Shown here in pieces: positions 13,746 to 64,000 of a DNA stretch of 64,000 nucleotides (position 1 is its first letter; each line of letters begins with the position of its first letter). The notes beneath the pieces are model-generated. The model had not been told where the DNA came from and ran no database searches. It saw only the letters and a list, made by a program, of their open reading frames with translations. Position numbers and translations under genes: made by a program. The stretch comes from Crambe crambe (Eukaryota > Porifera > Demospongiae > Poecilosclerida > Crambeidae): the NCBI GenBank assembly GCA_963924555.1, contig OZ004588.1, positions 3,410,001 through 3,474,000 on the forward strand, in the 5' to 3' direction.

Positions 13746-14331
13746 ATGGGGAACAAGACGAATAAACAGAAGCATGGGCCCGAGCCCGAGCCAAACTCTT
13801 TTCCTTCGAAGTCCGCAGGGAGCGATCTTTCTTCAGATTCCAACCCCATAACCTGTGAAGCAAGCCAAAAAAAGACACACAAAGCTGCCTCCTCCCCTCC
13901 CCCTCCTGTAAACATTGACATTGGACCTTCCAAGCCAAATAAGGAAAGCGAGCCTTCCCCTGATGAGTTCTTAGATCCTCCAGACCTTCCTAGCATAGAT
14001 GCAGGGAGTAAAAGTTTGTCGAGTGGACCAGCATTTAAGACTGAACCGAAGTCAGATCAATCTAAGTCTGCAGGGAGTGATCTTCCTTCAGATTCCAGTC
14101 CCCTATGCACCCCTGAAGCTGCCTCCTCCCCTCCACATCCTTTGAACATTGATAAATCATCTGAACTTCCCATGTCAAATAAGGGGAGTGAGCCTCCCTC
14201 TGATCATCCAGACCCTCTTCTAGACACTGGGAGTAAGAGCAGACCAGCATTTAAGACTGAGTCAAGTCCTCCAAAGAAAATGTCACGGCAGGAGAGGCGA
14301 CGAGCAGAAAGGGCGAAACGCAAGTTCAAAG
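13746..14331 (+). CDS. ROCO/Death gene exon 1: disordered N-terminal region
   Basis: Encodes residues 1-195. It opens MGNKTNKQ, a Gly-2 context that could be N-myristoylated, though position 6 is Asn, so this is weak. The rest is Ser/Pro/Asp/Glu-rich and likely unstructured. Residues 21-104 and 106-173 are an internal duplication: KSAGSDL-SDS..., AASSPP..., NID..., GSEP/ESEP, PAFKTE recur in order. Residues 179-195 (SRQERRRAERAKRKFK) are strongly basic, a possible nuclear or membrane-binding patch. The donor is TTCAAAG/GTATCT (phase 1). Confidence 0.8.
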
Positions 14332-17300
14332 GTATCTAGTTACACACTCATACCTGTGACTTGTCCATAGGAGTATAAAGGGATTGTAATGGCTGTGGTT
14401 TATTACTGCTGGAGGGTTTGTCTATACATGTGTCTGACCTCCAATGTAAATTCAAGACAGTTTTGCTAACATGATGCAGCCCAAATCATCAACTTATCTC
14501 ACCTTTGCCCCAAAACTAACTTTGCTAAATGCTAAATTGATGGAGTTAAAGGAAGTGATAAGCTCTTCTTTGTAGCATAAACAGCAGCAGGAGCCTCCAA
14601 AAGTGCAAACCAATTTAAGTACTACAATTTATGCCAAATACACCAATATGGACATAGCTGTTAAATTATAGTAAGCCACCACCTATTGCAACCTCTCTAT
14701 AGGATCTTAGGGTACAGAAATATCATACTGTATGTCCGGCAGTCATCTTGCTCAGACATGGATGACTGATGACTTCCCCAGTCATTCCTGATTGAGCTGT
14801 AATGACTCCACGTAATCTTTATGGGAGACATTGTATTACTGTCTGCCATTTCCACACAAGCATTTCAATAGCTGGCTTTTCTTTTACTCTGGTCAAGACA
14901 AATACCCTCTACATGTTCTCCCAGTACAACACACAAACTGAAAGCAATCACAAAAATGCCTTAAGTGGTAGGTAGTAAGTGATAGGACTGATAGGGTGTG
15001 ACTTCCTTCATGCACTGTGTGATCACCTGGATAAGTGGGGGTAAGGTGTCCCCAAACTTGTGTGCTGCTGCATTATAGATTGTGAAGTGAAATGGGCATG
15101 GCTAGGCTGGTCATTTCTGGGGCACTACTGTGCACTGGCTTGGGAATGAGGTGTGGATGGGGTCAACTTCACCCCTGATCCATGTGCTTGTTACAAGATG
15201 CCGCCATGTTGGTATATAGGTGAAGGGTGTGTCTATGAGTATGAAGTGTCTGTTATTTCATAAACCTCATGCAAATACAAGTCAACTCTGACTTCTTTTT
15301 AGTGTTAAAACATGATCTAACATACCAGCAACAGGACTCCTAAAGGCAAACTAGTACATTTCCCCTATACCATGTACACCAATATGGACAAGTCCAACGT
15401 TATAGAAAGCCACACCTATTGCAACCTCTCTATAGGAACTAAGGGGATAGAAATAATAATTATACTGTGTATATTACCTGGAATTAATAGGCTCCTGCAA
15501 ATTATGCTCAAATTTATACACAAGATTCTATTCTGAGATCCTCACTCTAGCCCCTCAATTATTCCCAAAGATTCTCTTATACATAGCTATATGGCAACAG
15601 GGCTGGATTCAGATTATTAAATAGATGGAGTTGTATGACTAGGGGCACGCACTGGACCATGGGGAAGGGTGTGGGAAAGGGCACATGGCTTGGGAATTAT
15701 TTGGAGGACCATGTATGTTGGCTTACTGATAGTTTGCCACATTTTGAGCTTTTAAAGTTTGCTTTTCATGTGCATACAATTGAATCCAAGTAGAGTAGTC
15801 TCCTATACCATACTTGATACCCATATATTTGATAATAATCCTTTTTCCTTGTATTAATTAATGGGGGCATGTGCAATAAGGAATGGCCAGGCAGTTTATA
15901 TCGCGTTTCCAATCCCGGTCACGTAGTCTATACAATCTATGGTCAGGCGGGACCAGGACAAGAGCTATAATATTCTGAGTGTCCATGCCAAATCGATAGT
16001 GTTGGTAGCTATGCACTAAATAGAACTGGTTAATACCTTTTGTGGACATCATCTTATTCACCATAATCTCCACTGTGGGGTGTGTTAGGTGTGCCAAATT
16101 AAACAGCTGTGGGTCCCTTTCCTGTCTATTATAGGAGCTGCTGAGTCAGTTTGGGGAATCCAAAACTCAATGTGTAGGATTTTCACCTGCTGATGTCAGA
16201 AGAGTGACATTTCCAATGAGACCAATAGTTGAGAATGCAGGCTTTGCAAATTTCCTAATATTCAACAACGTTATGTGAAAATAATGTGGATCATTTTTAA
16301 GGGGAAATCAGTCATGATATTAGCAGAGACATGTTCACTTATAATGACGTCACATTTTTATGCAAGGACAAATAGAGTCCCTATGAAGGGACTCACTTTT
16401 CTCTCACCACTAAATGTGTACATGTTTATTCATATTGACTGAAGTGAAGTGGGTAGGTACCTGCTGATATCTTTTAATTAGTGTATCATAGACGTGTTCA
16501 TTTTAATAATTTTGCAATATTTACAGCTCCTCCCCTCAGTGTCAACAATGTTATGGAAATCCTAAAGACACTTTCACTGCTTAATGTTCGTGACTGCCTG
16601 TGTATCCCTGACTACAAGTATGATTCTATAAAATTCGAATATCACACAGACCAGGAAAGACTAGCAGAACTCATCAAGTATTGGATCTTTAATGATCCAT
16701 GGGCATCCTGGAGGAAACTTATACAAAGGCTTGACCAGAGGAACGAGTCAGATATAGCGGACAGGATACGGAAGTATGCAGAGAAACTAACAGGTTAGTG
16801 AGTATCATTACTCAGATGCTGAGATGTGATAATGTAATTGAGCCCACACACTAATTGTATTAGTGAGGAAAGAAATATATGTACATTAACATATAGTACG
16901 TGGACAGATTCAGCATGCTGCAGTTCAATTCTAGAAGTCGGTGGTCAGTCAATCTATGGATCCTACATTCTTTTCTATCAGCATAGACTGTTCCTTTTAG
17001 AGTTGCAGCTTGTGTATTATCTCTAATTCCTCTAAGTGTTAGTTTAGGTAATCTGTATTTATTTGACTGGCAGCACATAAACATATAAGGACATGAGAGT
17101 CTAACTTCTATATCTGCTGAGTCAGCTATATCTTGGAGTTGATTGTAACTACTTGACTGCTGCACATGCTGAGATCCATGCCCAGTTGTTAAGAGTAGAG
17201 ACTCAAAGTCTGTAGTACATGTAACAAAGTTTAATTTTTTGTTTATCAATTTCATTGTACTATTCCAACAAACCCTATTATAGTCTATTTACATTCACTC

Positions 17301-23300: not shown

Positions 23301-26300
23301 TGACTCAAGTGTAACTGAGCCTAATTACAGTTAGTGTGAAAATAATTTGTCCCAATGAAAAAAGGACTGAACACAAGATATTCATGTTGCGTGACCTTGA
23401 TATGGGGGAAGTGAGCTCAATATTGGCTTTTAGAAAAGAGATACTTACCCAATTTGGTGATGGACTTATTGACGCGATTTTGATTTCGGATTCTACAAAA
23501 GAACTAAGTGAATATGCGATCACGATTTTGATGAACTGATCCAATCACTTCAAACAAAATCTAGTACTATAACTGTATGGTGTGAAGGGTGCAGCAAGAA
23601 ATGAAAGAAGGACTCCTCAGGCTCTGAAGATGAATCTAACGGAACAAAAAACCAAAAAAAGGAAAGGATCTAGTGATGACAGAATGTCAAGAGTTGATGA
23701 TATAACAGACAACTTGAGATGGGCATATGTACAGTAACCTACAGTATTGTGTATGGGCTGAAACAATTGTTGGAGGCAGGCATGCATCTATGGAAATATT
23801 TCAAGAAATCCAAAATTCTACCATCACGCGATCTTTCACCAGTAAATTTAGAGAGAGAAAACCCTACTGTGATTACCCCAGTTAAAGCTGCTGAATTGAA
23901 GACAATTTATATATCTCAAATTAAAGAACTCTATTTGTTGCTCAAGGTTGGGGCTATAACAGATGGTGACTTTCAAAAACAAAAGAGTAGTATTTTAGAA
24001 CTGATGGATAAATTGTAAGGCTATATTGCTTTTGATATTACCATACATTCTAATCTTAGCACCCACTAAGATTATGGAGCAAGCAATTGCTTAAATGGAA
24101 ATTAGGGGTCTTAATTTGTTATCCACTATTCTATTTAAGAACTGCTTTCTCGTAGTGGGTTTTACCCAAAACTGGCAAGATCTAGACTAGCTGTAATTTG
24201 AATTGATCCTGCAACTTCAGTCTGGTCATAATGCTACGCCTAAAACTTTCTCAGAATATCAGTCTCTAAAAATATAATGAAAAATTACATATAACCTGCA
24301 TGTTTAATATAATTTACACAATCTAGTGGAGCAAATGCTTCACCGAATATGATTCTAGGTGTGTTTGTTGATTGATAACTTAGTTCATTATCTCTAAGAT
24401 ATGACTTCACTTGACTAAATGCTTCCTCAATGGGGTTCAAGTCAGGGGAGTAAGGTGGTAAAAATCGTACTAAAGCACCAGTGGCTAAAATCAATTGAGT
24501 TACTGCTTCTACATGGTGGATAGATGCATTATCAAGTATGACTACAGAACAGGGATTATCGCCACCATCAAATGGAAGTAGTATAGGAAGTAAGCACCGT
24601 TGTACAAAATTCATGAAAACATCCGAGTTCACATTTCCCTCTGCAATATAAACATCTTGTATTCCCCGAAAAGTCAGTATCCCTATGGCCGACAACCTCT
24701 TACCATATAAAGTAAATTTGTGGGAAACAGGTATCATGCCTTGAAGACCATATCCATATTTACGTATTGTATTATGGTGGTTTGATCCTGTTTCATCAAA
24801 GTTTTGGGGTTAAATTCCATTATTTCAGAGATATATTTTGCTCTCTGAACATCACACCTTTGTCTTGCTACTAGACACATTTTCTGTCTAGTCATACCCA
24901 GTCTTTTGATGGTACGGCAAATAGTAGCACAATCATACCGGGATCCTGTTATATGTAACAGCTTTTGTTGTATCTCACGAAGATACATGCTGGGTGTACT
25001 CAGCAGCGTCTCTAAAATGGTGATTTCCTCGAACTCACTCATTTGTGGTAATGGACCATGCCTTTGGCATTTAGGTGATACATCCTCAGTTGTATAAAAA
25101 AGATAGATGTATCTCTCAATTGACCTGATGTTTACATACAGTTCCCTAGAAATCTCTTTTATTCTCTTCTTTTGTAGAAGATACTTCCAAATTATCCACC
25201 ATCTAAGGTCTTTTGAGTATCCTTTTGGCATTTTGACTGCTTCTTGTACTGTACAGTAGTTATTTTGAATTTGAATTCTGAGCATGCTCACCTGTGTCTG
25301 CTAGCTAGATAGTACATACAGTGTACACAAGGACTATGGTACTACTGAATTTCACTGCACTATATATATTGGTGTCTTAAAATTCATTCTTATTTGCAGT
25401 TAAAATTTGCTACTGAATGGAATGGGAATTTCTGCAAAGTGCAGATTTTAGCTGCCGAAACCAAATCATGCACTACAAGTAGAAGTCCTGGGTTCCTGGG
25501 TTAGAAGTCCTGAGAACATAGTTTCTTACAATTATATGATGTAAATCTGGGCCATGGGGACCATGATAATTTTAGTAATTATTAAACAAGTTCAACATAA
25601 AATTATAACCCTGATTATGCATGAGATTCACAGATCTATTTCTATTCAGCTTACTACATTGTTGATTTAGTTGTCACAACTTTTATATTAGCATTTTGCA
25701 ATGTGACAAGCAACTTGCAAAACTCTGTATGTGTTGTCTACTCATAATTATGTTCATTTGGAGGAAATGTATTGAAGTTTTGAAAACTACATAAATGTGG
25801 TCTGTGGCATGTAGTGTTGTTGGTCAAATGTAAACAGTCTCTATGGCATGACATCTTGTAACTATACATTCCTATTTGACATTAAGCATGCATGCCATTG
25901 TGGATATCCCAGGGTTGCAATTGTAATGTGTATAAGGAAGCTTTTGGGGGAGAGTTAGTACGTAGGGGATGTTCCATTCAGCCAAGAAAATAAGAAGTTA
26001 CGCAATAGTAGTGTAGTGATCAAAATAACAACCTGACACGACATTCTAATCAAGTATATCAGGTACATGCATAACACCAGTAAAGGCATGTAGTCTTAGT
26101 GTTCACAATGCGAAGTCATCCTGAAGAAAATCTAACCAAAGTGGACTACATTAATATGCTCAAATTTCAGCTCTACAATGTTATACGACATGAACTTTCA
26201 CATTCTCCCAGTCTAACATAATGTACTGTTGCCTCTGTATTACTTTTTTTCCTGATGCATTGCATTGGTTTTCAGTAAATCTAACCAAAAGTTGTTTTTA

Positions 26301-34900: not shown

Positions 34901-37900
34901 GCTGATTGATTCTTGACCTTACGTAATTTGGAGCTGGCTACCACTAACATGATCAGTACTCACTTGGCAGCTAGTGAGCATAAAGAAAGAAGAAATTATT
35001 TTGTTTATCATTCCACTATCATATCTGGAATATAGTAGAATGTCCTTACATGTGCATGCAAAAAACTAATACGTAATGTCCAAGAAAAAACTGCAGGATA
35101 GTATGCAATGATGTTCTATGTCTGTTGTGTGTGTAACACATACCAAGTAGAAAAAAATTAAATTTGAGTGGGTGTATTAAATATTAGTAATATAATTTAT
35201 ACATGCACAATGACATTCGTCTGTTTTTTGTTTCATTGACTACCCGTAGGTTCCGCTGAGTCACGTCGACTGTATAACGAAGCAATGAAGCAGGGACACG
35301 TAAAGTCCCAGATCAACAAAGCCCTCCTTTATGGGGCTCCAGGAACCGGAAAATCAAGTTCAATGGACCTTTTTGTCGGTAACCCTCCAAGACAAGCCAG
35401 AATAAGCACTCCTTTAGCTGCTCGTCCTATTACAATGATTCAAATGGGAATAACATCAAAGGAGTGGAAAAAGCTTCATCCAAAAGAACGGAAAGAAATT
35501 CTAGCAAGGGCCATATATGCTCAGCTTCATGCCAACGACACAAATTCAGGTGAAGATTGTGAGTCATCAGCTAATTCTGGTGAGAGTTCTGATTCTGATG
35601 AAATATTAACGACTCCTGAGCATAAAGAAGCTCGTAGTAAAGAGGATAAGTCGACACGTGACGTACATCCACGAGTACACCCAGCAACTCCTTCCAGTCC
35701 AACATCTGCTAGCAAACCAAAGAAAGGTTCTCATTCGAAGGAAAAGATTTCACTGCCATCCCTTGGCACACATGATGAACTAACAAAATTATTGGATGAA
35801 ATTTCCAAATCAGATGATCTTGAAGCTTTACCTGTCTTCCGGAAAGTTAAACTAATCGATTCTGGTGGACAACCGCAATTTCATGAGGTGTTACCTGTAT
35901 TTCTTCGTCGCATGTCCCTCTACATATTCGTCTTCAAGTTGTCAGAAGAACTCGCCACCAAGCCCATGGTAGAGTATTTTGGGGAGGATGGGAAACGTGT
36001 GGGGACACCTTACCAATCAGCTCAGTCCAACGAGCAGCTATTGAAGCACTGCCTTCGCACTTTGCACACTCACAGATCATCTCCCAATACTAAAGGTGAG
36101 TGCTCCAAAATCATGATCATAGGGACCCACAGGGACGAAGAACACCTGTGCACGACCGAGACAAGAGAGGAGAAGAACAAGAAGTTAGAAGAGCTGTTAC
36201 TGCCGATGTTCCAAGAGGAAGTCGTCTATTACAACCTGGCAGAAAATGAGGTGATCTTTCCAGTCAATGCCAAAAATCCTGAAGAGCTTGATAAGAGTAC
36301 AGCTAGAGATATCCAAAGTGTAGTCCTAACAAAGTGTATGCCTGATCCCATTGATGTGCCCCTTCAGTATTTCTCTTTGGAAATTATCCTTGAAGAAGTC
36401 AGCCTTTCTTTAGACAGAGGGGTATTGAGCAAAGAAGAATGCCTTAGAGCAGCAGATAAGCTTTTCTTTAATGAGCATACACTGGATGCAGCTCTCCAGT
36501 TCCTAGATGAAATTTCATCAGTCTTTTATTTCCCCGAGGTTCTGGATGGTGTTGTATTTACTAACCCTCAAGTCCTTTTGGATAAGGTAACCGAGTTGGT
36601 GGAGATTACCTATTGCTTGAGAGAAAAGGTTGGTGGAAAAGCACTTCGTGCACTCTCTGGAGGCTGGAAGAAGTTTAAAGATCATGGCATTGTTAGCTTA
36701 GAGCTTCTGCAAGAGAAAGAGTTTAATAAGCATTATGTGCCTGATATCTTTACTCCTGTTGATCTGGTCAAGCTCTTTAGAAAGTTGCTCATCATAGCTG
36801 ACTTTAGTGCTTCAGAGTACATCATGCCTGCCCTCCTTCCTGTTCTCGAAACTGAGAAGGTTCATAAATATCGTGTCTCTAATGATTCACTTGTAGCCCC
36901 TCTTGCTCTGGACTTCCCACTTGGAGGTCCTCGTCTCGGTACATACTGCAGTCTTACCTGCTTTCTTATCTCTAATGACAACCAGTTTCCCCGTCCTTGG
37001 AAAATAGTGTTGCTTCCTCCTTCCAACACTCCAGCTTGCCTGAATAGAAACTGCACCCAATTCATGGTACCTGGCTTTCCTGGCTCAGTCACTCTGATTG
37101 ACACATTCTTTCATGTTGAGATCCATGTGGATGACACTGCCGAGAAAGTTTGTAGCAAGCTCTGCTCTTTTGTCTCTCAGGCTGTGTTTGCAGGTCTAAA
37201 GAAAGCCATGATAGTTCTTGGGTACAACAACTCGATCCCTTCGAAAGCACTTCTTTGTCCTTGTGGGGCTAAAGATCCCCATGTTGCCACTTTCGGGGAT
37301 GGTCTCTGGATCTGCAGTCGAGATAACAAAGTATTTGGAGATCTTACTCCTAGACACCAGCTGTGGATAGAACAAAAATATCCCTCTAAAGATGGTAAGT
37401 CCTTATATACATACATATATACATACATACAAACATAATTATATTAATACACTTAAGTATTGCTTGTTATTAACTTTTCAGAACCACTAAGGTCACAAAT
37501 CACTATATTTATATTTTGATACAGATTCAGAAGTACTGCAAGAATCCACATCACCATCCAGCCATGCATCTCTTCCAACTGGTCCTGCAATGCACACTTC
37601 ACAAGGTTAGTTAATTAGCTAAAATGAAAGCAAAGAAATGGATTTAAATTAGTCAGCACTTTACTTGAATAGTATTTTGTAATGTTTAAATGAAAGGCTG
37701 AAAGGCTGGGGCCACATTACTTACATGTTTATTATTATAATACCTTCTCATGATATTTAGTTGATCTTCTATCATTTAATTCTACAGTGTCTTGCCCTCC
37801 TCCAACCATGATGGACATCCTGTGTTTCCCCCTGCAAGACTCTAGTGTGAACTTAACCACAGAAATCGGAGCAAAGTACCTTGAATTTGGAACACTCCTC

Positions 37901-47875: not shown

Positions 47876-48324
47876 ACAAGTGAATGCAAAAAATTTCTTC
47901 GAAATAAAAATGTGAAGTAGGGATGCTATTATAACTGCAGCTTCATTATGAAAACCAAGTACTGCAGCATCGAAGCAGTATGGCCCAAAAATCTAGCTGG
48001 AATATGTATTATAACTGCATGCAAGAGAGTGAACTTAGTGAAGTGACCCTTACCCATCATCAAGTACGAGATACTATTCCTACTTCACTCCCTTGGCCCT
48101 TGATCATGGGAGTGAAGTAGGAATAGTATCTTGTACTTGATGATGGGTAAGGGTCACTTCACTAAGTTCACTCTCTTGCATGCAGTTATAATACATATTC
48201 CAGCTAGATTTTTGGGCCATACTGCTTCGATGCTGCAGTACTTGGTTTTCATAATGAAGCTGCAGTTATAATAGCATCCCTACTTCACATTTTTATTTCG
48301 AAGAAATTTTTTGCATTCACTTGT
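47876..48324. mobile_element. Fold-back element, 217-bp arms with one mismatch, 15-bp loop
   Basis: Arms 47,876-48,092 and 48,108-48,324 are reverse complements at 216 of 217 positions by eye (one A/G difference, in CAAGTACGAG against the right-arm equivalent). The loop is TTGGCCCTTGATCAT. The outer ends ACAAGTGAATGCAAAAAATT match the ends of the fold-back at 49,378-49,633 (TAAGCGCAAAAAATTTCTTC) and the inner AAGTAGGGATGC motif, so both belong to one family. No coding frame. Could be transcribed as a long hairpin. Confidence 0.9.
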
Positions 48325-59972: not shown

Positions 59973-60215
59973 TGCGCATGCGTAGTTCTCATGATTGCAT
60001 ATCATCACGGCAATATAGAGAGCTTTTTCTCTTATCATCGGGTTTGATTTGCGTGAGTGTTGGAGTCAGTTTGCTGATAGATTGTGTCTAAACTAGTGCT
60101 AGAGTAGTAGTTTCTCTTCTAAGAGTACTCGGCGTAACTAACTAGTTGAAGTAGCGCCAGCTTACTTGTGGTCATTTTGGGAGGGCGGGGCTCGCTCTTG
60201 ATCTCCAAAGCAAAG
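59973..60215 (+). promoter_or_regulatory. NRF-1-like promoter and 5' exon of the SRCR/2A gene
   Basis: TGCGCATGCG (59,973-59,982) with a further GCATGCGT at 59,902. The region is GC-richer than its surroundings and includes GGGAGGGCGGGGCTCGC (60,179-60,195). It ends with a consensus donor CAAAG/GTACGT (60,216). No ATG-led frame longer than a few codons is open to the donor, so this exon is probably 5' UTR. Assignment to the gene at 61,709 is by proximity and strand. Confidence 0.5.
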
Positions 60216-61698
60216 GTACGTATGATAGTCATCACTAAATAGCTACACTAGCTATAATATGGGTTGCAACTACAGACTCTTGAGCGGTCAGCACAGTCAA
60301 GCAGCTGAAGTTCTAGGGCTCAATAAATTATGCTCCAAATTCTCCCCATAATGCTATTCCCTAATTCTCATGCACATAATGCACAAAATTCTTGATCATA
60401 GTTTTAAAAAGTTATCTAGCTATAGCTAGTTGTATTGGAGCATAGAAGTTTAAATAGTGTCATCCAAAGCAGAAGTTTGCTGGTCTGAAAAGTGAAAAAC
60501 AAAAAACAAACAAAAACAAAACAAAACAAAGCACTCTGCTGCAGTAGAGGAGGGCTGTACTAACAGAATCTGTCTGCAAGTAACAGACCAGTGAGGGAGC
60601 TGATTAGCATATTTCTTCCACCATTCAAACTTATCCACTTCAGAAGAAATCACCATCCACTTTTAAGTTGGAAGTTCTAAATCCTCTATTTGATCACCGA
60701 AAAAACTTGTTGTAGTCAATTAGTAAACTTGCAATGAACAGTCTCTGTGACTTAGTAGTGATTGTAATGGCCAAAATGTTCATATCTTAGGCTATTTCAG
60801 TCTCCTATCTCTTTATGTTGCAAAGTTGATGTTTAGCTAGCTAGCTATAATGTGTAATGATGTCCAAATTCTACTTAAAATGCTAAAAAATGCTGCAGCA
60901 CACCTAAAATGCTCAGAATGCTTCAGTGTGCGTGCACTCATAATGTGCTTTAAAAATGCCGGCACAATTATTAAGGCCTATGAAGTTATTTCGATATCTC
61001 AAGATTTTCATTGGCAAATTTTAATAGCTAGTTATGTGTAAATCTCGAGAAAAATGTGATATGATCTCAACACTATCATAGCTAGCTAGTACCTGATGGA
61101 TAAAAACAGATGAAGGAATGCTTTGAAGCCTGTGGTCAATGTATAAAGGAAATCTTCATACTAGCAGTAGTAGTAGCTATAGCTAATACAACTTATAAAA
61201 AGGCTGGACTCGATTTGTAACTATTAGCTATTAGAAAATTTCCTTAGCTGTTTTATTTTATGCATCAGCAGTTGAAATAGGAATATGAATAACAGGAGTA
61301 GTAGCTAATTCAGAATGTCTTCAACTCTGTGTAATAGCTAAATATCAATAAAAGCAGTCTGCATTAAGAGTATAATAGGAATAGGAATCAGACTTTGTGT
61401 AGCATGCTATGAATTATATATCAATATGTATAGCATGCTATGAATAATAATTCATAACTAACTACATGTATAATTTCCAGCCATTCTCATATTATCTTAC
61501 TGCATGTGAATCAGATACAAGAAGAGAGAAATAATTGCTTTTGATGGCTTTACATTTTGAATGGCTGAGCATTTACCTTCAATATTAAAAGTAGGATGAG
61601 AATCGTGAGATTTATCGGCATAGTGGCAGTCCTTAGCTACTTTAAATCAACTAGCTTTGATTCCTGTTGGAAAGGCAGTGATGAGCTTATCATTTTAG
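60216..61698 (+). other. First intron of the SRCR/2A gene
   Basis: GTACGT to CATTTTAG. It contains a 667-bp hAT-type MITE (60,314-60,980), an A-rich run (60,497-60,530) and repeated TAGCTAGCTA motifs. No other coding sequence is seen; the minus frame 60,450-60,656 lies within the MITE. Confidence 0.6.
60314..60980. mobile_element. 667-bp hAT-type MITE, same family as 57,394-58,256
   Basis: The left end TAGGGCTCAATAAATTATGC and the complement of the right end TAGGCCTTAATAATTGTGC resemble the TAGGCCTCGATAAATTATGC ends of the 57-kb copy. Flanks are TGAAGTTC (60,306-60,313) and TGAAGTTA (60,981-60,988), a 7-of-8 target duplication. Internal AAAATGCT/CATAATG motifs near both ends. Confidence 0.75.
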
Positions 61699-61919
61699 GT
61701 GTGAGAGGATGATCAGGTCTGAACTGGTGCAGTTGTGGAAGTCTCGGGTCCAGTACCTGAGGCAATATTATTGCTTCAATGGCCATAGACCAAAGCAGAG
61801 AGGCTACCCCGTCCTTTCCCGCCATGTCTGGTTCATCCCTTTCATTTTGACTGCATGGTGGTTGTTGATAGCTGTCATCTTTTTATACAAGCTCAAAATG
61901 CAGGATTTATTAAACAACG
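61699..61919 (+). CDS. SRCR/2A gene, exon with start codon and membrane anchor
   Basis: ATTTTAG/GTGTGAG to AACAACG/GTGAGA. From ATG 61,709: a basic, Tyr/Arg-rich 39-residue head (RVQYLRQYYCFNGHRPK...), then a hydrophobic span VWFIPFILTAWWLLIAVIFL (about 40-60) and KLKMQDLLNN. Positive charges before the span suggest a type II (N-in) signal anchor. The SRCR exon following it would then be extracellular. Phase-1 donor. Confidence 0.7.
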
Positions 61920-64000
61920 GTGAGAATTATGTATAATTTATATTAAGTGTAATGGATAGTTAACCACTATGAATAAAGTTGGTAGAATTACTTTGAAGTG
62001 TCTAAATGAGCACCTAAATGAAGTGTCTCTACAAAGATTACCATATACCTTGGTCTGTTCATTACAGAGAGTTAGAATGTGTTGTTATAGTTACTTATAA
62101 GTTTGATCTTATTATAACTAGGGTATTTTGACAAGCATTGGGTAGACTTTGCCAGTTCCTGATCCTAAGAAAGCAAGCGATTATGTCCTGTCTTGATGTG
62201 TCTAGCTACCAGGTAGCTCTATAGCTATGATGTTCCATTAAATCACTTCCTGTGTAAAGCTATAAACTTAACTAGTTGCCTATAGTTAGTAAAATCTGAA
62301 GTATTAAAAGTCCATTCTTGGTGGTGTTGGTTACGCAATTAAACTTTGATGACATTTAGGTTGCACAGAAGGTGATTTCAGACTTGTAAATGGAACTGGT
62401 ACTGAGGGTTGTGTGGAGATATGTCTCAATGGAACTGTGTGTGACCAGATGTGGAGTGACACTGATCCCAGTGTGGTCTACAAGCAACTAGGAATGTCAT
62501 CTACAGGTAGTACTAAGTAGCAACAATCTAAACTGAATGTTTGAGAAGTGGAAATGCAAAAATAAATATGTCTATAGAACTCTCTCTCTCCCCCTCTCCC
62601 CTCTCCTTTGAAGCAAAAAAAATTAAGAAAAAATTATGATACTCATAAATTCATAATTACGCATTCTATAATTCTTCAGTATTGAAAGTATGATGGAGCT
62701 TATATTGAACTGGATTTAAAAGCATTATGTAGCTAATAAGGCATAATTAATTTCACGTAGCCCTACTCAGACTTGTGATAGTTGTCAAAACTCCAAATTG
62801 CATAACTGGGACTTTGTACCCACTACCCAATGCTCCATGCTTGCATTAAAAAGTACTTTTTTATGACCAGTCTCTGTGATATCTTTCTTCTCTTCTTAAT
62901 CATCTTCTTCTTCTTCTTTCAAGGGCCAATTGCACTACAAGTAGCTAAGGAGTTGGCATTGCTGAACACTCTGTGTTTAACTTTTCTGAGCAATGGCTTA
63001 GAAATAAGACATGCCTTATAATTATGATAGTAGCAAAGTACATAGTCTAGTAGTTAGTATTGAAATAGGAAGAATAAACAAAAGTGCCTGTAAATCAGAT
63101 ACATCACATAACTATTTTTATTTTACTAATTATTAAGTAGAGGTAAAATTGAAATACTTATACTTAACTCTTTTAATGCTCTGTTTTATATAGGTGATAT
63201 CACAAGATACTTGCTTGCTTTGAACTTCCTACTTGTATTGTTGTGGTGGAAGCTTGCCATAACTGAATCTGAAGGAACCCTTAGACCTCACCCTTATAAA
63301 GGCCCCTGTTGCATCAATCGCAAGCTTCAATATGGCTGCACTACTGCATACAAGAATGCTTCCATAAACACTTTACTACCCCTTCATGACGACTGGAAGT
63401 GGTATCAAAGAAGAAGATCTCTTTTTACCATCCACTATTCTGACCTTCAAGTGTTGGCGCCATTAACATTATTATTGTGTGGTGATGTTGAAACTAATCC
63501 TGGTCCTGGTGAGTATGTTACTTGCAAGTGTATATGAATCAAGTGTCTATATACGTACACAGTATGTGGGCTAATAATATACCAGAGAAAATTAATAGTA
63601 TTCATGGCCACAAATGGCTGATTTTGTAACCTGATAGCTACTGTATGTCATAATATGCTAGTATGTGCATTGTACTAGACTGTATATCAACTATGTGGTA
63701 ATAATGTACCAACTAAAACTCTTAATGCTATTTCATGTATTCTGAATTCATAATTCGGTGAGTGAGCGTAGCAATCAAGCTGACTCTGAGGTTAACCCTC
63801 AGCGTATGCACAAGTGTGTATGTGTATCTGTTACATCCATTACGAAGCCAGTAGTGGTTATATTGCTTCAATTTCAGCATTAACAATGTCTAGACGATAC
63901 TCTTCAGTGCTTAAATTTTTTGATAAAGGCTTTATTCCTGAAAGTAGGTAAGATTTGCCACCAATGTGCACATGCACTCAATAATGTATGTTTGTCGACC
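61709..64000 (+). CDS. Membrane-anchored SRCR protein gene with in-frame 2A-like motif (partial, runs off the window)
   Basis: Proposed exons 61699-61919 (ATG 61,709), 62360-62506, 63194-63508 and 63878-63947, with the 3' part missing. The first three junctions are phase 1, the last donor phase 2. The model reads: cytoplasmic tail and membrane anchor (1-70); SRCR half-domain (71-119); second hydrophobic segment and Cys-containing region (120-212); 2A-like LCGDVETNPGP at about 214-224; then a new product starting P-A-L-T-M. 2A-like motifs make the ribosome skip the final Gly-Pro bond and release two proteins; they are known from viruses, non-LTR retrotransposons and some invertebrate immune genes. 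An alternative is that 63,194-63,508 is a retrotransposon fragment caught between fortuitous splice sites. A competing exon at 62,924 would end the protein early. Confidence 0.55.
62360..62506 (+). CDS. SRCR/2A gene, first half of an SRCR domain
   Basis: CATTTAG/GTTGCA to CTACAG/GTAGTA, 49 codons, phase 1/phase 1. It reads GDFRLVNGTGTEGCVEICLN, then GTVCDQMWSDTDPSVVYKQL and GMSSTG, the standard first half of a scavenger receptor cysteine-rich domain (G-x-[VI]-R-L-V-N-G...G-x-V-E-[VI]-x-x-x-G...V-C-D...W...A-x-V-x-C-x-Q-L-G). The usual Cys before RQLG is Tyr here (VVYKQLG), and additional Cys occur (EGC, EIC). SRCR domains are commonly split over two exons at the LGF-x-x-G point, as here. Confidence 0.85.
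62924..63020 (+). CDS. Possible alternative terminal exon of the SRCR gene
   Basis: Preceded by the strongest pyrimidine tract of the region (about 40 bases of C/T, then TTTCAAG). Phase fits the SRCR exon: the join gives GMSSTGPIALQ, which is how a second SRCR half would start (G-A-x-A-L). It then reads VAKELALLNTLCLTFLSNGL without the expected Cys pattern and stops at TAA 63,018-63,020. An AATAAA lies at 63,073. Either a decayed second SRCR half or a terminal exon giving a short membrane form. Confidence 0.45.
63194..63508 (+). CDS. SRCR/2A gene, exon ending in a 2A-like ribosome-skipping motif
   Basis: TATATAG/GTGATA to GTCCTG/GTGAGT, 105 codons, phase 1/phase 1, open throughout. Hydrophobic stretch RYLLALNFLLVLLWWKLAIT, then GTLRPHPYKGPCCINRKLQY with Cys pairs, a basic WYQRRRSLFTIHYSDLQ, and LAPLTLLLCGDVETNPGP at the very end. 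This is an intact D-V-E-x-N-P-G-P 2A core preceded by the usual hydrophobic helix and G. The donor falls one base after the final Pro codon. The ATG-less frame at 63,211 is internal. Similar 2A motifs stand near the N-terminus of CR1/L2-type non-LTR retrotransposon ORFs, so a retroelement origin is possible. Confidence 0.65.
63878..63947 (+). CDS. SRCR/2A gene, candidate exon after the 2A motif
   Basis: ATTTCAG/CATTAA to AAAGTAG/GTAAGA. Entering in phase 1 it continues the 2A frame as P-A-L-T-MSRRYSSVLKFFDKGFIPES without a stop and leaves in phase 2. Short, so splice sites carry most of the weight. No domain can be named. The gene is expected to continue past 64,000. Confidence 0.45.

Follow-up and report, generated by a model that had tools for sequence, protein, structure and literature searches.

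A probable cellular StopGo (2A) peptide between membrane leaders and death-domain proteins in a large gene family of the sponge Crambe crambe

According to a 2026 study, natural StopGo (2A) belongs for the most part to viral decoding and is seldom found in cellular genes (PMC12846837). The 64,000-nucleotide stretch of the genome of the sponge Crambe crambe that was analysed here (the window; C11:3,410,001-3,474,000, in a genome of 143 Mb and 119 contigs) contains a single 2A motif, placed at the end of an exon of what appears to be a spliced host gene. This raises the question whether an animal gene employs StopGo at this place and, if so, which two products would be separated. We consider it probable that a large family of death-domain genes, multiplied by tandem duplication, carries a cellular StopGo peptide as the fixed last part of an N-terminal exon cassette. 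By analogy with known 2A peptides, it most likely splits a two-pass membrane module of 223 amino acids from a cytosolic Death/Roc-like protein.

The 2A exon of the window (63,194-63,508, on the plus strand like all other parts of this gene) starts directly after ...TATATAG, within an open frame at 63,130-63,537, and ends at CTG|GTGAGT, one base past the last Pro codon. Together with the comparison of paralogs, this bears out the original prediction of a phase 1/phase 1 exon with the 2A one base before its donor. The exon encodes a hydrophobic segment, a Cys/basic region and, finally, LTLLLCGDVETNPGP, with the leucine-rich stretch and the 2A core, LLLCGDVETNPGP, at 63,469-63,507. The nonapeptide at the exon end, GDVETNPGP, conforms to the core pattern (D/G/C/N)(V/I)ExNPGP, and the predicted break would fall between Gly and the last Pro. 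The hexapeptide before the core is TLLLCG. Its Cys had been taken as a reason to doubt activity, but this doubt is unsupported: the hexapeptide belongs to a described StopGo class in which the upstream motif is rich in leucine and ends in (A/S/C)G (motifs 2 and 6 of PMC12846837).

When the 105 amino acids of this exon were compared with the same genome, 113 matches were obtained at E<=10, none with an internal stop. Two of the 75 matches with E<=1.1e-6 fall short of residue 105; all 73 that reach the exon end keep the exact 2A core, these exons being, like the 39 sites discussed below, related paralogs and hence dependent events. The substitution rates (dS/dN of 0.263/0.030 against paralog c5a, 0.228/0.038 against c11d and 0.711/0.273 against c21) indicate that the exon is under purifying selection. 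In the genome as a whole the exact pattern G-D-V/I-E-x-N-P-G-P occurs at 207 sites (97 + 84 + 26), 165 of which have a neighbour on the same strand within 60 kb, and the reversed pattern, used as a control, does not occur at all. Since the core is intact in every one of these paralogs and the control is empty, the predicted motif can be regarded as genuine, and as neither a stray motif nor one that belongs to a retroelement.

We read 39 distinct 2A sites, the other 168 of the 207 including two large clusters on C10. A GTRAG donor follows the core at 32 of the 39 (chance expectation approximately 1%), at offset 1, 4, 7, 10 or 13 and always in phase 1; at none of the 39 is such a donor in phase 0 or 2. 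The seven remaining sites, as judged by eye, have weaker GT donors at offsets 25-34 in six cases and a GC donor at offset 13 in one, again all in phase 1. The residue before the G is always Ala (14 sites), Cys (13) or Ser (12), mostly after a leucine-rich stretch. After removal of the hexapeptide and the core, the leaders of these sites form 11 single-linkage groups at E<=0.01, the largest having 17 members; two of the groups, that of the window and that of C8:6.99-7.32 Mb, are distantly related. Some of the leaders are short anchors, others are basic and have two segments, and one is without a strong hydrophobic segment.

In the window, the exons at 61,699-61,919, 62,360-62,506 and 63,194-63,508 splice into one open frame that starts from the ATG at 61,709. 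This ATG is preceded, in the region of the 5' exon, by stops in its own frame; a probable 5' untranslated exon is located at 60,040-60,215 (donor AAAG|GTACGT, with 60,040 as an arbitrary start), and the stretch 60,001-60,230 is 94% identical to that of paralog t2. The first coding exon, supported by its open frame and its genome matches, encodes a basic N-terminus and the first membrane anchor (MIRSELVQLWKS...VWFIPFILTAWWLLIAVIF). The leader of the window family thus defined has 223 residues and hydrophobic segments at residues 40-58 and 125-143, with hydropathy values of 2.36 and 1.81, respectively. The membrane anchor (40-58) and the exon borders 61,919/62,360 and 62,506/63,194 had been proposed before and stand, and the second segment, which lies inside the 2A exon itself, is absent from that account. 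The N-terminus is presumably cytosolic, given the basic residues ahead of the first segment; with two passes the C-terminus of the leader would therefore be cytosolic as well.

In a search of the genome, the anchor exon matched 71 places, all of them free of stops. If two fragment matches are left aside, 68 of 69 copies are followed on their own strand by a 2A no more than 20 kb away, the exception being C1:4,959,773. This exon, too, is under purifying selection, judging from its dS/dN values (0.301/0.099 against c21 and 0.532/0.137 against c11e). Seven of its copies, on two contigs (C11 and C10), encode an identical run of 71 residues, and two of the seven share 99% identity in the following intron, which suggests recent duplication or gene conversion.

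The short Cys-bearing exon between the two (62,360-62,506) is half-SRCR-like, but the label of an SRCR receptor given to it previously is not borne out. It scores 18.5 bits with Pfam SRCR, below the cut-off of 26.1, and covers profile positions 7-44 of 100. It was found in four of the 15 regions searched, several of which are too short upstream to judge, and all four are on C11 (the window, t1, t2 and c11d). At c21 and c9x some 80-100 bases separate the anchor exon from the 2A exon, which leaves no space for it.

What follows the 2A in the window gene differs from what was first proposed. Directly behind the 2A exon starts an intron of 1,255 bases, which occupies 63,509-64,000 of the window and, according to its acceptor and the paralogs, runs to a death-type exon at window-equivalent position 64,764 (L009:764). 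A phase-1 acceptor, ttgtttttatag|ATATTGATG, is present 1,255 bases past the 2A exon, immediately before this conserved exon, and the joined frame reads ...GDVETNPG|P-DIDEKTLLSELATVEFKWF..., i.e., NPGP-DIDEKTLLSEL, as it does in paralogs. The modelled open frame, by splice-site and paralog reasoning, spans the leader, the 2A and the death-type exon, and the sequence thus most likely continues directly into the latter, 764 bases past the window end. The exon originally put forward as the next one (63,878-63,947, continuing as P-A-L-T-M-S-R-R) falls inside the intron and is not supported as such. It shows no sign of coding constraint between paralogs, with 0 synonymous and 3 non-synonymous changes relative to t1 and t2, counts that are small because the DNA is 97% identical there, which is not below the surrounding intron. 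Relative to c11d, whose counterpart contains a stop, dS is 0.116 and dN 0.130. By eye, a different acceptor would allow it to be spliced in frame to the same death exon, and it may be used optionally; with or without it, the frame leads to the death exon.

The window gene's own death-type exon gave no Pfam match, and it is termed death-type on account of its identity to the corresponding exons of c5a (39%) and c12 (36%). Pfam Death matches the c12 exon at 0.00028 and that of c21 at 0.00063, both below the cut-off. Further 3' are a Pro/Ser-rich linker and more death-like exons that are conserved in paralogs (Pfam Death 0.0049, below the cut-off), while NACHT is absent from the 20 kb scanned behind the 2A. 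At C11:3,495,383-3,497,560, 21.9 kb behind the 2A on the same strand, there is an open frame of 749 codons that is 88% identical to a Roc-like ORF within the window (35,240-37,435), which itself reaches 17.4 bits with Pfam Roc (cut-off 27). A Roc-like ORF lies 21-31 kb downstream on the same strand of 11 of the 14 C11 2A sites examined (C11 has 17; 47 of the 207 sites entered this distance test). Since genes that carry a 2A alternate in this array with genes that lack it, such an ORF is also found 18-30 kb upstream of most C11 sites, within the adjacent gene. Among the 61 scored Roc-like ORFs, 22 are the first within 35 kb behind one of the 47 sites used. The leader, the death exons and the Roc-like exon 22 kb on would probably form one gene.

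The window also holds the body of an upstream paralogous gene (14,058-37,435, plus strand) that is without 2A or anchor exon. It consists of a linker (14,058-14,333), death-like exons near 16,520, 22,304 and 29,193, and the Roc-like ORF already mentioned (35,240-37,435; 732 codons), all on the plus strand. A DDE_3 transposase ORF on the minus strand (24,288-25,300; Pfam 9.2e-26 for 24,288-24,809) has apparently been inserted within it. Elsewhere in the window, at 47,876-48,324, an inverted repeat with 220-base arms that are 99% complementary and 9 bases apart is perhaps a young foldback-type element.

The association of 2A and death-type exons extends to other loci. A death-type exon was detected in sense orientation within 6 kb downstream in 22 of 28 loci, nine of which had served to build the death model, and in none of the 28 in the antisense control. 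The upstream control gave one in 28, in a stretch that includes a neighbouring 2A gene, and is weak because most upstream stretches are short. Of the six loci without a death exon by this model, one is truncated and three have only approximately 3.4 kb of downstream sequence. Phase-1 acceptors before the death exons are clear at most loci, but less so at c9b, c11e and F_C3. Pfam Death was found in seven of the eight 2A-following exons tried, five below 1e-3 and four above the cut-off, the miss being that of the window gene. Genome-wide, 20 Death matches picked by hand from the 150 listed (of 965 candidates) gave seven pairings downstream of a 2A and five upstream within 12 kb; on account of this selection we use just four of them, found at C5:9.01-9.05 Mb with the Death match 135-139 bases after the 2A.

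Other domains follow at some of these loci. On C16 a NACHT domain (3.4e-21) is situated approximately 1.7 kb behind the 2A, past the death exon, and among the 103 NACHT matches listed (of 232) there are seven pairings within 12 kb downstream of a 2A, at six different 2A sites, against one upstream and none on the opposite strand. Past the death exon, ankyrin is present in c12 and a weak Roc match (0.0073) in c21. By eye, ankyrin-like stretches were seen in F_C1b and F_C6b, Ig-like ones in F_C6a and F_C8a, and a NACHT-like one in F_C5L, for which the single frame tried gave no Pfam match. Nine 2A sites make up one cluster at C1:3,553,870-3,988,057 (plus strand). In the family at C1:3.55-3.99 Mb (F_C1a), the one member read has Ig (1.1e-5) and Ig-like exons after the 2A and no death exon in the 3.4 kb downstream. 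The same arrangement thus seems to precede Death-NACHT (NLR), Death-ankyrin and Ig-bearing proteins in other families of this genome.

The purifying selection on the exons and the open spliced frame support the earlier view of a cellular spliced gene with a constrained 2A and a membrane protein upstream of a putatively separable product. During synthesis the leader of 223 residues would insert twice in the membrane, leaving both its ends in the cytosol. At NPG|P the ribosome would, by analogy, end the leader at Gly and restart at Pro, and the second protein would begin with Pro-Asp-Ile-Asp-Glu, have a death-type domain at its N-terminus, and continue with more death-like exons and probably the Roc-like nucleotide-binding exon 22 kb on. 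When skipped, the death protein would be free in the cytosol; when skipping fails, the same protein would remain tethered to the membrane, and thus the 2A would set the ratio of soluble to tethered forms of a death-domain sensor or adaptor. We also lean, with less assurance than for the cassette as such, toward a broader reading in which StopGo is, in this non-echinoderm animal, a general regulatory joint of the innate-immune-type repertoire. A phase-1 2A cassette would then have been placed on many architectures, giving some two hundred genes, each of which would encode a membrane leader together with a death-fold protein that can be released into the cytosol, and the skipping efficiency would decide between tethered and soluble forms.

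A different emphasis, which we hold to be possible though clearly less likely, is dual targeting as in sea-urchin NLRs, in which skipping is incomplete by design and the form that matters is the unskipped, membrane-tethered Death/NLR receptor. The N-terminal placement before Death and NACHT proteins is the same, the sea-urchin element is reported to be approximately 80% active with the unskipped form entering the secretory path (PMC4981915), and sponge NLRs with predicted transmembrane parts are on record (PMC12909245). However, the core and the leucine-rich context found here match classes of highly active elements (PMC12846837) and, unlike in the sea urchin, the two hydrophobic segments would keep the death part cytosolic in both forms. 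It is improbable that the peptide is conserved merely as part of a membrane leader and that fused, membrane-anchored death proteins are made without any skipping. Such a reading draws on the fact that skipping is deduced from sequence and that the hydrophobic residues before the core could belong to the anchor, but what the sites share is precisely the polar StopGo core with its (A/S/C)G lead-in, whereas the 11 leader groups differ in length and hydropathy.

Two-A peptides also occur, in many copies, in non-LTR retrotransposons, and a LINE origin of the present copies was therefore considered and rejected. Around the 207 2A sites, within 12 kb, one RVT_1 match is located downstream and two upstream on the same strand and six on the opposite strand (143 matches: the best 150 of 801 candidates minus 7 on small contigs), and five loci scanned frame by frame with Pfam on the gene strand gave no reverse transcriptase match. 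The hundreds of exon copies followed by LINE sequence that would speak against a host gene were thus not encountered. Among the matches listed, the sole RVT_1 shortly downstream of a 2A on its strand, at a distance of 4.85 kb, is that of the 2A at C8:6,512,974 (plus strand), where it is likely an insertion. That the exon is part of a 2A-bearing non-LTR retrotransposon, or an exonised piece of one, is therefore very improbable in spite of the known occurrence of 2A in such elements (PMC4981915), the high copy number of the exon and the C8 case, given the RVT_1 positions and scans just described, the same-strand clusters, the introns and death exons at matching places and the purifying selection. 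The peptide itself may still derive from a retroelement in the remote past.

The 207 exact cores of this one animal genome mostly form same-strand clusters and, among the loci read, belong mainly to death-domain genes. If StopGo is indeed active there, no larger use of it in cellular genes is known to us. The leaders and 2A variants form a natural series for measuring tuned skipping. Furthermore, 'membrane-bound' NLR-like proteins of early animals would need to be reread, since their anchor may part during translation. It also raises the question whether the lineages of the sea urchin and of Crambe crambe acquired this arrangement independently.

The system shares features with several known ones. 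With non-LTR retrotransposons that bear a 2A it has the peptide and the many copies in common; it differs in its introns and death exons and in the absence of reverse transcriptase behind the exon at the loci scanned. With viral StopGo it shares the core (D/G/C/N)(V/I)ExNPGP and the L-rich stretch ending in (A/S/C)G before the Asp (PMC12846837); unlike the viral peptides, those found here are encoded at exon ends of spliced, chromosomal host genes. Sponges are reported to have more than 100 NACHT proteins in each of 11 species, and, as in the sponge NLRs including 'membrane-bound NLRs', Death and NACHT families are expanded and some are clustered, with predicted transmembrane parts (PMC12909245). 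The main text of that paper contains no occurrence of '2A-like', and a 2A after the transmembrane part would, unlike in a membrane-bound NLR, release the protein; our search of the open-licence literature returned no previous description of a 2A in sponge or Death/Roc genes. The closest counterpart is found in those NLRs of Strongylocentrotus purpuratus that carry a 2A-like signal sequence at the N-terminus (Roulston et al., 2016; PMC4981915) and are numbered at 85 of 241 in the introduction and 14 of 87 in the Results of that paper. Both are large cellular families with a hydrophobic leader and a 2A N-terminal to Death/NACHT immune-type proteins. In S. purpuratus the leader is a secretory signal of 26 residues, whereas that of the window has 223 residues and two hydrophobic segments, and the window gene is without NACHT in 20 kb, while other families, e.g., that on C16, possess it. 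In addition, the genome of Crambe crambe has 11 leader groups among the 39 sites read, Death in combination with Roc-like, NACHT or ankyrin parts, Ig, and 207 sites in total. The peptide is thus of a known kind, the cellular N-terminal 2A of sea-urchin type, and what is new here are its genome-wide scale, its leaders and its partners.
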